DNA from: Natrialba hulunbeirensis JCM 10989
GTDB taxonomy: Archaea > Halobacteriota > Halobacteria > Halobacteriales > Natrialbaceae
Reading direction: 5' to 3'
DNA: 64,000 bases
NCBI RefSeq assembly: GCF_000337575.1
Contig: NZ_AOIM01000013.1
Span: 62,001-126,000, forward strand
Both the position numbers and the translations under genes were made by a program. Numbering within the stretch: the first letter of the stretch is position 1; each line of letters opens with the position of its first letter. Below the pieces are notes generated by a model that did no database searches, was not told the DNA's origin, and saw only the letters and a program-made list of their open reading frames with translations. Positions 16,271 to 64,000 of this stretch are shown in pieces.

Positions 16271-17326
16271 TTATCGCCGATTCGGCGTCCACTCCTCACA
16301 CGCATCCATATCGTCCATCGCCTGCTCGTGACGGGCACAGTAGGGCACCATTCCCGACGACGAACGCACGTACTCGAAGTGCCGGCAGTTACCACAGTAC
16401 CGATCCGTCGGCGCAGTCGTCGACTCGTCGGCGTCCGACGCATCCGTTACGATCTCGGCATCCCGGCCGTCCCCGATCGGCTGGGACTCGAGTGGCGATG
16501 AAATATCCTGGGTGGTCGAACCGCCGTCGCTGGTGACGGCACCGTGTCCGCCGAGTCCGGAGCCGGAGGCGTTCGACTGTGATTGCGACTGCGTGCGGCT
16601 CGTAGTCGACTGTGATTCGTTGTAGGAGAACGTCGAGTCGCCAGTGGCTGTGTCGGTTTGTGTGCCGGATGCGGTCGCGTTCTCGTCGTCGGTATCGTCC
16701 TCGCTCGAGGCGTTCGTCTGTGTCTCGACATCACCGTCGGGCGTGCCACCGAGGAAGCCGATACCGCCGAAGCCGCCGGTGTTCGTCGATTCGTCGACTT
16801 CGACGACGGTCTGGTTGTGTCGCGTCACGTTCATCTCGAGCATGCCGCCGGGATCGTTCCGGGTCTTGAAGTTGACGACGGCGACGAACAGACACCAGAG
16901 GGCGATGAAGAGCCCGAGCAGGTAGATGGCGGAGATTTCGAGCGTGAGTTGGTCACTCCCGAATCGCCAGCGCTGTGGGTAGGCGTGCCAAAAGAGGACG
17001 ACTCCGAGTAAACAGAGACTCGCACTAATCGCAGCGGCAGCGCGAACGCGACGGCTCGCCGGCAAGACGATGAAGACGCCCACGAGTGCGGCTGGAACGC
17101 CAATTCCCGCGAGCACGCCAGCGACGCGGACGACCGCGTACTGATCGTCCATCCCCCACTCGGAGAGCCCGATCGCGAGGTCAGCAAAGAAGTCTGTCGT
17201 CGCGACGAGCACAGCGACCACTGCAAGCGTCGCACCGAGCAGGACGAGGGCGGTTCCCGCGTACAGCCGCCGGAGGCTCGTCACCTCTCGTGCGTTCCCC
17301 TGATACGCCTCCGTCAGGCTTGTCAT
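16271..17326 (-). CDS. DUF7139-like membrane protein with C-terminal Cys motif
   Basis: The 351-residue protein has four predicted membrane helices in residues 20-150. A hallmark AYPQRWR lies at residues 115-121, preceded by RVAGVLAGIGVPAALVGVF. A long low-complexity linker rich in Thr/Gln/Ser/Asp follows. The C-terminus has four cysteines (YCGNCRHFEY, PYCARHEQAM, ACEEW) that probably bind zinc. The membrane part is homologous to the N-terminus of the 978-residue YegP-array protein at 59580-62516, but the tails differ. Function unknown. Start ATG 17326. Confidence 0.75.
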   Translation of the reverse strand: MTSLTEAYQGNAREVTSLRRLYAGTALVLLGATLAVVAVLVATTDFFADLAIGLSEWGMDDQYAVVRVAGVLAGIGVPAALVGVFIVLPASRRVRAAAAISASLCLLGVVLFWHAYPQRWRFGSDQLTLEISAIYLLGLFIALWCLFVAVVNFKTRNDPGGMLEMNVTRHNQTVVEVDESTNTGGFGGIGFLGGTPDGDVETQTNASSEDDTDDENATASGTQTDTATGDSTFSYNESQSTTSRTQSQSQSNASGSGLGGHGAVTSDGGSTTQDISSPLESQPIGDGRDAEIVTDASDADESTTAPTDRYCGNCRHFEYVRSSSGMVPYCARHEQAMDDMDACEEWTPNRR

Positions 17327-17417
17327 GCTGGGTCGTTCGTGGTCCCAGCACAAAACGATACGTCAGACATATGTCAGCGCCAGAAGAGTATCACCACCGT
17401 TGACAGCCGGTCGATGA

Positions 17418-58712: not shown

Positions 58713-59489
58713 CTAGACACCGTTTCGGATCCGTTCCTCAGCCGCCGCCAGCGCGTGCTCGCGGTCGAACTCCTCGATAATCGCTACCAGTTCGTCCTCG
58801 CTCGCCGTCGCAAGCTCCTCGGCGTGTGCCGTCATGTTCGGCACCGCTCGGATGATGTTGTCGACGATCGGAACCTCGGCGACCTGTGGCGAGCGCGAGA
58901 GCGGGTTCAGGTCGATCACGATCTCGGTTTTCTCCATCTCCTGGAGAGCTTCTGCACGGTCGCCATCTTCGAGCGGGACGACGACTACGTCCGCCGCATA
59001 AATGCCGTCGGCGTCGACCTTCGCCCGCTGGTGGTCGAGGTTCGGAATACGAGCGTCCGCAGTCAGCCCCTTCACGTCCTCGGCACCGTGCTCTCGCAGA
59101 TGGTCGGCGATCGCCTCGATTCGCTCCGGCGTCCGGTTGAAGAGGTTCACCTCGAGATCGGCGTCCACCGCCTCGGCCAGCTCGACCATCTCCCCAGGCA
59201 CGAGCGCGGCGACGTTCCCGTTGATCGATAATACTGGCTTTTCGGCGAGCAGCAGGTGGGCCGCCGCCGCCCGCTCTGCCGCGTCGGCGCTCGGAATCGT
59301 CTCCTCACCCAGCAGGTAATCGAACGCGCTGCCACGTCCCTCCGCGTGCATCCCCTGCAAGTGCGTAATCCCCTTCTCGACACCGTTCTCGATCCGGTGG
59401 CGGGTAATCAGATCCTGATATCTGGGATGATCCTCCGGAATCTCCTCCTCGTGTTGAACATCTGCCGAGACGGTGTCGTACTCGCTCAC
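58713..59489 (-). CDS. 4-phosphopantoate--beta-alanine ligase (archaeal phosphopantothenate synthetase)
   Basis: A 258-residue protein matching the archaeal PPS family: EIPEDHPRYQDLITRHRIENGVEKGIT, LSINGNVAALVPGEMVELA and PLEDGDRAEALQEMEKTEIVIDLNPLSRSPQ. In archaea PPS joins 4-phosphopantoate and beta-alanine, replacing the bacterial PanC/PanK order. GTG 59489 is chosen because a TATA box lies 22-31 nt before it; the ATG at 59534 would place the promoter inside the gene. It is separated from the pantoate kinase gene by the 978-residue repeat protein. Confidence 0.9.
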   Translation of the reverse strand: MSEYDTVSADVQHEEEIPEDHPRYQDLITRHRIENGVEKGITHLQGMHAEGRGSAFDYLLGEETIPSADAAERAAAAHLLLAEKPVLSINGNVAALVPGEMVELAEAVDADLEVNLFNRTPERIEAIADHLREHGAEDVKGLTADARIPNLDHQRAKVDADGIYAADVVVVPLEDGDRAEALQEMEKTEIVIDLNPLSRSPQVAEVPIVDNIIRAVPNMTAHAEELATASEDELVAIIEEFDREHALAAAEERIRNGV

Positions 59490-59510
59490 GATCGAGTACT
59501 CGAGTGCGTC

Positions 59511-59520
59511 GATAAAAAGG
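59511..59520 (-). promoter_or_regulatory. TATA element deciding the PPS start
   Basis: Minus strand reads cctttttatc, 22-31 nt before GTG 59489. This supports a leaderless start at the GTG rather than the ATG at 59534. Confidence 0.55.
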
Positions 59521-59579
59521 AGACCGATCTGCAAAAAACGGCGTCGGAATCAGTCGTTCGACGCCGTGCTACAGCGCAA

Positions 59580-62516
59580 TTACTCCGTGAACGTGATCCA
59601 GCCCTCTGGTGCTTCGGCTTTCACGTTGTTCATCGCCTCGCGGGCGTTCGTCCGGGACTCGTAGACCTGCGTGCTCTGGGCCATCGTCGAGCCGTACTCG
59701 TCGACGAGCCGCCAGACCCAGCCGTCTTCGTCCTCCGCAGTGTGGAGTTCGAACGAGACGCTGTCGATCTCGAGGATGCTCGCTGCGTCGATCAGTTCGC
59801 GGACGTTCTCGAGTGCCTCGCGAGCGGCCTCGCTCGACTCGTGTGATTCGGAGCCGGTGGCGACTGTGCGGCCGTCCTCGTCGATGAGCCGCCACTGCCA
59901 GCGCTCGTCCTCGTCGGCGACGAGTTCGAACGAGGCGACGTCGAAGTCGACGCGGCCGGCCATCGGTGCGAGCTGGCGGACGGTTTCGATCTCCTCGTGG
60001 AGTTCCTCGCGGCTCGCTGCGGTGTCGACGGCGCTTGCGAGGACGGTGCGCTCGCGGTCGACGAGGTCCCAGCTCCAGCCTTCCTCGTCATCGGTGACGC
60101 GGATCGCGGCGTCCTCGATCGTGAAGATCGGTGCATCGTCGGCGTGTGCCTTGAGATCCTCGACGATCTCGAGTGCGGCGTCGCGTTCCGCGTAGGTGTC
60201 GGTTGCGTCGGCGATCTCCTCGCGATCACGGTCGAGGAGTCGGTAGCTCCAGTCGCCGCTGCGGTAGAGCTGGATCGTGACGGTGCCGATCGTGTAGTCC
60301 TGTGCGGTTTCGGCTGCGTCGCGAACGGCAGGGATAGCGTCGACGAGTTCGTCGCGGGTCGCGTAGGTGTCGCCGGCGACGGCGACCGTTTCGCCGGTCG
60401 GGAGGACGAACCGCCAGTGCCAGTCGTCCGCTGCGTACGGCTGGAAGATCGCCTCGTCCATCGTGCGCACGTCGGAGTCGAGATGTTCGAGGAGCCGGTT
60501 CATCGCCTTGCGTGCGGCACCGCGGGTGGGGTGCGTCGACGGATCTTCGGCGACGAGCTGACCGGCTTCGTCGATGAGCCGCCAGCCCCACTCGTCGTCC
60601 TCGTTGACGAAGAGTTCGAAGGCGGCGGTCTCGATCTCGAGCAGTTCGGCGTCCGGTGCCTGCTCTTTGAGCGTCATCATCGCTTCTGCGGCCTCGCCGC
60701 GGGAGGTGTGTTCTGCGCCGCTGTCTGCGAGGACGTTGCCGTCCTCGTCGATGAGCCGCCAGCGCCACTCGCCGTCGTCGGCCTCGTAGACCTGGAAGGC
60801 GGCCTCCTCGAACTCGATGAGTTCGGCTTCGCTCGCCTGCTCGCGAACGCGCTGGATCGCTTCGGTCGCCGTCTCGGCGTCGTAGTGGGGTTCGGTGCTT
60901 CCGGCGATGACGTCGCGGTCTTCGGTGACGAGCCGCCAGTGCCAGGAGCGACCGTCGTCTGCGCCGCCCGCACCGCCGTCGCTGTCCGCAGTCGCCGTCC
61001 CGCCGTCGGTCGAAACCATCTGCTGCTCGTCGGACGTTGCAGGCAGGGCGTCGCCCTCGTCGTAGGTCAGTTCCTCGCTGTCGGTCGGGTAGACCTCGTA
61101 CTCCGCGTCCTCGATCTCGACGACGTCGGCGTCGCGGGCGTGCTCTCCAAACGTATCGGTTTCGTGAGTTGCGTCAGCCTCCGTCTCGGTGTCGCTCGGA
61201 CTCTGGGCAGCGACGTGTTCGGACTCGTCGATGAGCCGCCAGCGCCACTGTTCGCCGGTCTGATAGCGTTCGTAGGTCGGTTCGCCGGCAACCGTCACCG
61301 ACGCAGTCCCGAGTTCCGAAAGCAGTGCGTCCGCAGCTTCCTCTGCGTCCCGCCGGGCGTCGTACGCATCGGTTGCGGCGGCGAGCGGCGAATCCTGATT
61401 GTCGACGAAGCGCCACGACCAGCCGTGTGCGCCGTTGTCGCCTGTCCGCTCGTAGAGTTCGGCACCGACGTGTTCGAGGTCGAGCACGCGTGCCTGGTCG
61501 AATCGCTCGGCGAACGTCCGTGCGGCCGTCTCGGCGTTCTCCTGCGTGCCGTGGCCGTCTGCGCCCGAGGCCAGCGGCATCCGCTCGTCGTCGACCAGTT
61601 GCCAGTGCCACTGGTCGCGTTCTTCGGCGTACGTGAACGCTGCACCGTCGATTTCGATCACGTCGGCCGTCGGTCCGCGATCCTTGAGGAAGCTCACGGA
61701 CTCCTCTGCACCATCGCGCTCGCTAAACTCGCCAGCACAGGTGCCGACGACGCTGCCGTCGTCCCGTGCGAGCGTCCATTGCCAGCTTCCGTCTCTATCC
61801 TCGTAGAGCCGGAACGCGGACGTGGTGAGTTCCATCAGTCCGGCAGAACTGATCTGCGACTGGACACGCTCTATGCCCTCGGTCGCCTTCGGCCGGGTCA
61901 CAGCGCTCTCGTTGCTCGTCGCCAGCGCTTCGAGGTGGAGGACGTTCCACTTCCAGTCGCCGTTCTCGTCACGGAAGACGGCGAACTGGGCACCCTCCAG
62001 CGCGTCGCCGGTGAGAATCGGTGGATCTTCCGTGTCGCCCTCCTCTTCGACGAACATCCCCTTCCGACCAGTCAGGACGGGGACTAGTGCGGTGACACCC
62101 GCGATAATGCCGACACCGATCGTGTAGACGAGGATGACGTGGACGCTGTAGTCCGTGCCGAGCTCTCGCCAGTTGTACGGATACGCCCACGCGAAGAACG
62201 CAACGCCGCCAAACGAAATCAGCAGTCCCAGCGCACTCACCTGAATCCCCCGTTTCCGAACTGGAAGCATGAGAACGATCCCGAACAGACAGAGTGCAAG
62301 TCCTGTCCCGGCGATGACGCCAGACATTCTGATCAGTCCGTACGTGTCTGCGTCACCCGCATAGCCGACGACGAACGTAAACACGGCGGCTGCGGCGATA
62401 ACGTAACCGACAATAAACAGCCAGTAGCCGTAAACGTCCTTCGTCGAGTCGGGTTCCCCGACGTAGCGTTCGTACAGCCGGTACAGTTTGTGGTGAACGT
62501 CACTTGGTGAAGACAT
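59580..62516 (-). CDS. membrane protein with 13 tandem YegP-like (DUF1508) repeats
   Basis: The 978-residue protein has a DUF7139-like membrane domain (residues about 27-155, four to five helices, AYPYNWR at 111-117). A long array follows of 13 units of about 55-60 residues. Each has the pattern F-x-x-Y-x-D...W-x-W-R-L-(I/V)-D-(E/D)-D-G...(A/G)...E-x-A-x-x-A-(L/M)...A...(I/L)-E-I, the YegP/HVO_2922 motif with its Trp-x-Trp pair. Unit 6 holds an 80-residue Gly/Asp/Thr insert. YegP monomers usually occur as two units. It sits between the two pantothenate genes in the same direction. Function unknown; the array may be an extended cytosolic binding surface. Start ATG 62516. Confidence 0.8.
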   Translation of the reverse strand: MSSPSDVHHKLYRLYERYVGEPDSTKDVYGYWLFIVGYVIAAAAVFTFVVGYAGDADTYGLIRMSGVIAGTGLALCLFGIVLMLPVRKRGIQVSALGLLISFGGVAFFAWAYPYNWRELGTDYSVHVILVYTIGVGIIAGVTALVPVLTGRKGMFVEEEGDTEDPPILTGDALEGAQFAVFRDENGDWKWNVLHLEALATSNESAVTRPKATEGIERVQSQISSAGLMELTTSAFRLYEDRDGSWQWTLARDDGSVVGTCAGEFSERDGAEESVSFLKDRGPTADVIEIDGAAFTYAEERDQWHWQLVDDERMPLASGADGHGTQENAETAARTFAERFDQARVLDLEHVGAELYERTGDNGAHGWSWRFVDNQDSPLAAATDAYDARRDAEEAADALLSELGTASVTVAGEPTYERYQTGEQWRWRLIDESEHVAAQSPSDTETEADATHETDTFGEHARDADVVEIEDAEYEVYPTDSEELTYDEGDALPATSDEQQMVSTDGGTATADSDGGAGGADDGRSWHWRLVTEDRDVIAGSTEPHYDAETATEAIQRVREQASEAELIEFEEAAFQVYEADDGEWRWRLIDEDGNVLADSGAEHTSRGEAAEAMMTLKEQAPDAELLEIETAAFELFVNEDDEWGWRLIDEAGQLVAEDPSTHPTRGAARKAMNRLLEHLDSDVRTMDEAIFQPYAADDWHWRFVLPTGETVAVAGDTYATRDELVDAIPAVRDAAETAQDYTIGTVTIQLYRSGDWSYRLLDRDREEIADATDTYAERDAALEIVEDLKAHADDAPIFTIEDAAIRVTDDEEGWSWDLVDRERTVLASAVDTAASREELHEEIETVRQLAPMAGRVDFDVASFELVADEDERWQWRLIDEDGRTVATGSESHESSEAAREALENVRELIDAASILEIDSVSFELHTAEDEDGWVWRLVDEYGSTMAQSTQVYESRTNAREAMNNVKAEAPEGWITFTE

Positions 62517-62865: not shown

Positions 62866-63705
62866 CTACCGCAACAGCGCACCCGCGGGATGGGTCGCAC
62901 AGACGGACGGCTCGTAGCCAGCATCCGAGAGCCCGGTTCCGAGGGCGAACACCGTCTCACCAAGCATCGCCATCGATGCCTGCCCGTTAACGTCTGTTAC
63001 GTCACCGATCGTATGTGCGACCTCCTCCGTTAGCAGTTCAGCCTCACGCGCGAACAGGCGCGAGGCGTACATGAACGACAGCAGCGTCGGCTCCTCGACG
63101 ACGCGCGAGAGCGCCTCCTTCCCTGCAGCCGTCAACTGGTCCGTCTCACCCGCAAGCACGTCTGCTGTCGACAACTCTCCAAACGAAACGTACTCGACAC
63201 GGGCACGCGCCGGAATCGCATCGAGTTTGTTCTCCTGTGGCCCACCCGGCTCGAGTCGGATTGGAATCCCGCCACAGTCCTGGGCGACGACATCGCCGAG
63301 TCCCGTCCCAGCCTGTACTTCCGCGCCGTGGGCAATCGTGACGAGTTCGTTCCGGGATAGCTTACAGCCAAACACACGGTTCGCGGCAAGCGCCGTTCCG
63401 AGCGCCATTGCACCCGAAATACCGAACCCCGCTCCAAGCGGTAGATCCGACTCAGCCTCGACACGAGCGACTACGTCGAGCGTTTCGAGAACGATGTCGA
63501 CCGGTTCGATCTCGATCATTTCCCCGTCGAGGATGACGATCGACTCCGAGGCCTCCTCGGCTACCGGTTCGACCGTCACCGTCACGCCGTCGGTCAGCGT
63601 CAGCCCTGCCCCCCGCGATCCGGCCATCGTCGGATCGTCAGCGGGATGAGCGCTGAAAAAGCCCGTAATGTGCCCTGGTACGAACGCCGTCGCCTCCTCG
63701 CGCAT
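62866..63705 (-). CDS. pantoate kinase
   Basis: A 279-residue GHMP-family kinase of the archaeal pantoate kinase type, with AFVPGHITGFF at the N-terminus and PLGAGFGISGAMALGTALAAN as the phosphate-binding loop. It phosphorylates pantoate to 4-phosphopantoate, the step before PPS, so the two genes at 58.7-63.7 kb make the archaeal CoA precursor. ATG 63705 fits the family start; an in-frame extension to 63948 is antisense to the next gene. Confidence 0.92.
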   Translation of the reverse strand: MREEATAFVPGHITGFFSAHPADDPTMAGSRGAGLTLTDGVTVTVEPVAEEASESIVILDGEMIEIEPVDIVLETLDVVARVEAESDLPLGAGFGISGAMALGTALAANRVFGCKLSRNELVTIAHGAEVQAGTGLGDVVAQDCGGIPIRLEPGGPQENKLDAIPARARVEYVSFGELSTADVLAGETDQLTAAGKEALSRVVEEPTLLSFMYASRLFAREAELLTEEVAHTIGDVTDVNGQASMAMLGETVFALGTGLSDAGYEPSVCATHPAGALLR

Positions 63706-63787
63706 TGGCGACCCTTGCGACTCGGACAGTATAACGTTGCGGATTTGGGCGACTACGACCGCTGCTGCTGGCGTTTTGTCGTTTCCA

Positions 63788-64000
63788 TCACACTTCTCGT
63801 TCCCGACCGGCCAGGGTACTCGAAACGGTCGCACCGACGAGCGCAGATTCGATCCGGCGCAGTGTCTGACCGACGGCGCTCGCCGAACAGTCCAGTTCCG
63901 CCGCGATATCGCTGTAGGTCGCCTCCCGAGGGACCTCGTAGTAGCCATGTTCGTGTGCGGTCTGTAACACCTCCCGCTGGTGAGCGGTGAGATCGTGATA
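63788..64000 (-). CDS. Bat-type helix-turn-helix (HTH_10) regulator, C-terminal part
   Basis: The visible 70 residues are the C-terminal HTH_10 domain of bacterioopsin-activator-like regulators: LTAHQREVLQTAHEHGYYEVPREATYSDIAAELDCSASAVGQTLRRIESALV. The rest of the gene lies beyond position 64000. Such proteins often carry PAS/GAF sensor domains and regulate light, redox or metabolic genes. Its stop is 82 bases before the pantoate kinase start. Confidence 0.9.
   Translation of the reverse strand, partial: YHDLTAHQREVLQTAHEHGYYEVPREATYSDIAAELDCSASAVGQTLRRIESALVGATVSSTLAGREREV

Follow-up and report, generated by a model that had tools for sequence, protein, structure and literature searches.

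A haloarchaeal membrane protein carrying a constant array of thirteen unequal YegP-like units

Introduction

We know of no function for the YegP-like (DUF1508) domains, which are widespread and for which structures have been solved. HVO_2922 of Haloferax volcanii (PDB 6q2z) is a single unit of 60 residues, with two chains in the entry, and Escherichia coli YegP (2k8e) and SO3888 (2k49) each consist of a tandem pair of units. YegP-type pairs swap their last strands. In the open literature that we searched, DUF1508 was named merely in passing, no ligand or partner of any YegP-like domain was given, and the haloarchaeal membrane domain DUF7139 was not described. A longer protein with similarity to these domains, as we report below, is Anabaena All3315. 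This protein, named Cis12, is a baseplate protein with an extension (residues 610–1,100) that is absent from AFP; an extra domain of Cis12 is the 'wide connector' that joins a contractile injection system to the thylakoid membrane (PMC8894136). YegP is not mentioned for Cis12 in that paper.

Here we describe a protein in which 13 diverged YegP-like units follow a DUF7139 membrane domain, an unusual length for a YegP-like protein, as the initial annotation had remarked. It is encoded in a 64,000-nucleotide stretch of Natrialba hulunbeirensis DNA, which we call the window. The names of its domains are already in databases; its fixed architecture and unequal units appear to be undescribed in the open literature searched.

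Results

The gene lies on the minus strand of the window, with its ATG at 62516 and a stop codon that ends at 59580, and encodes 978 residues (Table 1). The whole chain matched both Pfam PF07411 (DUF1508; E = 5.7e-69, 228 bits against a curated cut-off of 22) and NCBIfam NF041908 (HVO_2922; E = 1.3e-82, 272 bits against a cut-off of 90, in 12 stretches). Thirteen W-x-[WY] motifs are present, at residues 188, 245, 303, 366, 424, 525, 584, 643, 699, 756, 814, 873 and 933, and a profile made from 12 units of the window protein itself found 13 units scoring above 5 bits. Taken singly, seven of the 13 units (2, 6, 7, 9, 10, 12 and 13) reached the curated cut-off of PF07411, units 1, 8 and 11 matched below it, and units 3–5 gave no match to this profile at E ≤ 10. 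In orthologues, however, units 3–5 scored well above shuffled controls, and AlphaFold2 gives them the common unit fold. The expectation that most units would match PF07411 was thus borne out narrowly by single-unit searches and clearly by the iterated profile, the shuffles and the fold. An open frame of 696 codons runs antisense over the array (59997–62087, plus strand) and is likely a by-product of high GC content and codon bias.

Table 1. Features of the gene and its neighbours in the window (residue numbers in brackets; AF2, AlphaFold2)
Feature	Position	Strand	Evidence
CDS, DUF7139 membrane domain and 13 YegP/DUF1508 units	59580..62516	-	Pfam/NCBIfam profiles; AF2; 100 distinct orthologues
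DUF7139 four-helix membrane domain (10-153)	62058..62489	-	PF23600 E 3e-41, 140.9 bits, cut-off 30; AF2 helices
Array of 13 YegP-like units (172-978)	59583..62003	-	Profiles; orthologue counts; AF2
Unit 1 (172-228)	61833..62003	-	PF07411 12.6 bits, below cut-off; own profile; AF2
Unit 2 (229-286)	61659..61832	-	PF07411 26.3 bits
Unit 3 (287-349)	61470..61658	-	No single PF07411 match; own profile; AF2; above shuffles in 96% of orthologues
Unit 4 (350-407)	61296..61469	-	No single PF07411 match; own profile; AF2; above shuffles in 100% of orthologues
Unit 5 (408-466)	61119..61295	-	No single PF07411 match; own profile; AF2; above shuffles in 98% of orthologues
Unit 6 (467-567), contains insert	60816..61118	-	PF07411 36.7 bits over 523-568
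Low-complexity insert, ~43 residues, in beta1-beta2 loop of unit 6 (479-522)	60951..61082	-	W spacing; pLDDT
Unit 7 (568-626), central, most conserved, signature DEDGNVLADSG, candidate docking unit	60639..60815	-	PF07411 37.9 bits
Unit 8 (627-682)	60471..60638	-	PF07411 15.5 bits; own profile; AF2
Unit 9 (683-739)	60300..60470	-	PF07411 25.6 bits
Unit 10 (740-797)	60126..60299	-	PF07411 32.9 bits
Unit 11 (798-856)	59949..60125	-	PF07411 15.6 bits; own profile; AF2
Unit 12 (857-916)	59769..59948	-	PF07411 35.2 bits
Unit 13 (917-978), C-terminal strand GWITFTE	59583..59768	-	PF07411 30.2 bits; AF2 strand 973-976
Phosphopantothenate/pantothenate synthetase (4-phosphopantoate--beta-alanine ligase, PPS), ~46 bp downstream	58713..59534	-	PF02006 E 1.4e-74; NF010324
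Pantoate kinase (PoK, GHMP family), upstream	62866..63948	-	NF040725 E 1.2e-53, below equivalog cut-off; PF00288

An AlphaFold2 model built with 46 orthologues contains 13 consecutive beta-beta-beta-alpha-beta units (mean pLDDT 84.7), with a full-chain pTM of 0.59 that limits global accuracy and leaves the overall shape loosely defined. Repeated beta-alpha units had been anticipated for the whole chain, and the array, together with the membrane domain before it, stands as the initial annotation read it from the motifs. Units 3–5 and 9–11 are the most confident part of the full model. By contrast, a fragment of four units (9–12) modelled alone folded poorly (pTM only 0.32), a difference that is compatible with long-range contacts but also with weak alignment support. 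The linkers from the last strand of one unit to the first strand of the next span only 2–6 residues in the model, so that neighbouring units probably share strands. The distance between the fifth and sixth W motifs is 101 residues, as compared with about 58 elsewhere, giving an insert in unit 6 of about 43 residues rather than the 80 first proposed. This insert is predicted to be disordered (pLDDT below 50 at residues 481–519) and is variable among orthologues, in which the same gap ranges from 57 to 103 residues, the insert being missing in some.

We compared the array with the known structures. HVO_2922 matched unit 7 (phmmer, E = 1.3e-8) and the unit profile (E = 1.3e-20), and its fold is alike, with a TM score of 0.73 to the chain and a Foldseek probability of 1.00 to 6q2z; it differs from the 13-unit protein, in which diverged units stand behind a membrane domain. 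YegP and SO3888 belong to the same fold class (Foldseek probability 1.00) and have two units only. The array aligned to the pair with a TM score of 0.42 over 116 columns, which suggests that neighbouring units are placed differently from those of YegP, within the limited global accuracy of the model. The short linkers fit a two-unit pairing with swapped last strands, whereas the TM score to the YegP pair does not. Many Foldseek matches were to beta-propellers, which we rejected (TM about 0.04, probability mostly below 0.2), as we did matches to FtsQ_DivIB, transposase, 14-3-3 and the like, which were weak or composites of repeats.

The 13-unit profile also matched residues 961–1160 of Cis12/All3315 (7b5h; E = 4.9e-5), with a Foldseek probability of 0.91 over 451 columns and weak, recurring unit-like matches from residue 683 onward. 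This YegP-like region overlaps the extension that connects to the membrane. Cis12 differs in that it belongs to the baseplate of a contractile injection system, lacks DUF7139 and has units that are only weakly similar. It offers the sole experimental hint to a role of YegP-like repeats, and that role is a structural one. Among Cis12 baseplate proteins of such systems, YegP-like units are seen in chain AD of 7b5h (residues ~683–1160) and also in 7aeb/9wsz (Algo12/Alg12, residues ~585–638).

The membrane domain, initially described as four to five helices, has four predicted transmembrane helices (25–53, 58–83, 88–111 and 124–149) preceded by a short N-terminal helix (6–18). The N terminus aside, lysine and arginine are most abundant in the loop that joins helices 2 and 3 (mean 2.6) and in the stretch after helix 4 (mean 1.6); the opposite loops have means of 0.1 and 0.9. 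We infer from this positive-inside pattern, a topology read from charge counts only, that the array is on the cytoplasmic side and that both ends of the protein are inside. N-glycosylation sequons are rare, at about one per array. Another haloarchaeon encodes a membrane GT2 glycosyltransferase with a fused array of four DUF1508 units (locus L192, 4921–7227, plus strand). The catalytic domain of GT2 glycosyltransferases faces the cytoplasm, which supports a cytoplasmic location for the related array studied here.

The number of units is constant. A search with the N-terminal domain among haloarchaeal genomes returned roughly 100 open frames of about 930–1100 residues. Our orthologue set combined 63 loci from this listing with 60 loci from named genomes, including Natrialba, Natrinema, Natronorubrum, Halopiger, Halovivax, Haloferax marinum, Halorubellus, Halosimplex, Salinarchaeum, Halorientalis and others. 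Every intact orthologue has 13 units (120 of 120 with duplicates, 100 of 100 without), so the architecture recurs in about 100 haloarchaea and is conserved, not peculiar to a single genome. The variation in repeat number between strains that the initial annotation proposed to survey was looked for in these orthologues and not found. Four loci alone depart from 13 (L154, L164, L175 and L177), and these look like frameshifted genes or genes cut by contig ends, as judged by split frames and contig ends. Median unit spacing is 56–59 residues across orthologues, the insert in unit 6 excepted.

The units also keep their identities. When proteins of different species sharing under 50% identity were compared, 353 of 546 units found their best match at the corresponding position, as against the 8% expected by chance. 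Because positional identity holds across distant species, we regard the array as ancestral and rule out a recent tandem expansion. The protein from which our sampled orthologues descend therefore already had the 13-unit array, and nothing suggests that units have been gained or lost since then. The gene is patchy in families outside Natrialbaceae, and partial spread by transfer is possible. A copy on the Natrialba magadii plasmid pNMAG02 (locus L199, 8007–10625, plus strand) is 47% identical and still has 13 units; membrane helices 1 and 2 are absent from it, and it is annotated as a 'DUF1508 domain-containing protein'. Transposases and a universal stress protein are encoded near this copy.

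The 13 units are not equal. In protein pairs less than 50% identical, mean identity was 64% for unit 7, 32–50% for the remaining units and 42% for the DUF7139 domain. The canonical signature, G-[NERKD]-[IV]-x-[AGS]-D-S in its strict form, was found in unit 7 of 58% of 55 non-redundant proteins and in no other unit; a looser form was found in unit 7 of 91% and in at most 11% for any other. Since this pattern was picked after the sequences had been inspected, similarity to HVO_2922 is the cleaner test. Unit 7 had a mean score of 122 against HVO_2922, compared with 56–84 for the other units and 22 for shuffled units, and was the best match among the 13 in 53 of the 55 proteins. Conservation and likeness to HVO_2922 are roughly symmetric around unit 7. 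Twelve units thus appear degenerate, the canonical form being retained only in the exact middle of the array.

DUF7139 itself was found in 376 of the 391 haloarchaeal genomes searched. The DUF7139 proteins sampled at random from the top of the list that this search gave are short (about 270–450 residues) and lack YegP units. One such unit-less paralogue lies in the window (16271–17353, minus strand) and has a C-terminal, cysteine-containing DUF7140 domain. A sister class shares with the 13-unit class the N-terminal DUF7139 and the unit family, and differs in having mostly five units in about 500–610 residues (for example, L115, L179 and L200), all near HVO_2922. Thirteen of the sampled loci of this class have five units in one frame, with DUF7139 in another frame in two of them; some further loci have three or four units. 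In two genera, the five-unit array is divided 3+2 over adjacent frames (L191, 5662–7431; L195, 5640–7370), perhaps as two genes. Mean scores against HVO_2922 are 144–174 at each unit position of the sister class, which is canonical throughout. A DUF7139 tree separated repeat-bearing from unit-less proteins with support of 100/99, grouping the two repeat classes together, and is compatible with the 13-unit class being one clade or more than one. We rejected the idea that the five-unit array corresponds to a block of the longer one, as its units resemble the consensus-like unit 7 or 12 and match no collinear block.

We next consider the genomic neighbourhood. Of 64 orthologue loci, 49 have PPS downstream on the same strand, no more than 150 bp away in 35 of them, and 50 have PoK upstream on the same strand. 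Both genes flank the array gene in 45 loci, which span Natrialbaceae, where this is the arrangement in most members, and three further family-level groups. Several Haloarculaceae and Haloferax marinum lack this synteny. Ten loci, most of them from a single other family, have the gene at another place, beside varied housekeeping genes (RpoL-like, LeuRS-like and others), and no constant partner was found outside the CoA context. In many genomes without the array gene, PoK and PPS are side by side, indicating that the gene is dispensable for the CoA pathway.

Discussion

The reading that we favour, at roughly even chances, is that the protein forms a membrane-tethered, cytoplasmic arm of fixed length, made of strand-sharing units and one specialized docking unit. 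The four-helix DUF7139 domain would anchor the 13 YegP-like units at the membrane as a stiff array in which adjacent units probably share strands in the fashion of a YegP pair. The twelve degenerate units would be mainly structural, fixing length and shape, and a partner or ligand would probably dock at unit 7, which bears the canonical DUF1508 signature. Such an arm may keep an enzyme or complex of the cytoplasm close to the membrane; given that the gene adjoins those for PoK and PPS, this could be one of the CoA pathway.

The initial annotation had offered multivalent binding or a ruler as the function. Of these, the ruler gains from the constancy of 13 units in all 100 orthologues, and YegP-like repeats have a precedent in the Cis12 membrane connector. 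Nevertheless, we consider a pure ruler or spacer, which would itself carry no binding site and would set the distance from the membrane to something at its far end, to be unlikely: conservation is strongest in the middle rather than at the end, and unit 13 ends the protein with no further domain. For multivalent binding, in which each unit would hold one copy of a common ligand and the membrane domain would cluster them, the 13 units are homologous and the sister class is canonical throughout. However, the inequality of the units speaks against 13 equal binding sites, with the signature confined largely to unit 7 and low identity in the rest; moreover, a multivalent array should tolerate gain or loss of units, none of which was seen. 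We therefore regard multivalent binding as very unlikely. Many haloarchaeal repeat proteins are external, and an external stalk spanning the cell surface or S-layer would be in keeping with this general pattern, but it is highly improbable here: the positive-inside pattern and the even number of transmembrane helices put both termini inside, no signal peptide was seen by inspection and sequons are few.

A role dedicated to CoA synthesis, as a regulator or a scaffold that recruits PoK and PPS, would account for the position of the gene between those of both enzymes in four family-level groups and for its closeness to PPS in the window. Yet the gene is absent from many genomes that have the pathway, in which the enzyme genes are adjacent, and located elsewhere in other lineages, making this quite unlikely. 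A rather unlikely, though more far-reaching, idea is that the number 13 is set by closure of a strand-sharing structure, either a fold-back arm or a closed ring, which would be a new repeat architecture. In the fold-back version, unit i could pair with unit 14-i, giving six pairs with the canonical unit 7 as an exposed tip. Closure would explain why the number is fixed and odd and why the conserved unit stands in the middle. It is hinted at by the symmetry about unit 7 and by the poor folding of units 9–12 alone, set against the high confidence of units 3–5 and 9–11 in the full-length model. Covariation (MI-APC, effective depth about 49) gave values of 3.89 and 3.99 for unit pairs summing to 14 and 15, as compared with a null of 3.47 ± 0.31; at about the 90th–95th percentile, this is not significant.

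A constant number of units is unusual for tandem repeats. Twelve copies have decayed and the middle one has been kept across haloarchaeal families, a contrast that should mark which surface of a YegP domain matters. The likeness to an injection-system membrane connector suggests that YegP-like repeats more generally act as structural arms at membranes. DUF1508 units occur in further haloarchaeal settings: fusions of an Amphi-Trp domain with one or two DUF1508 units recur (L117, 4389–5702, plus strand; L196; L197), and the first of these is encoded in the same genome as the 13-unit protein, on contig C35.
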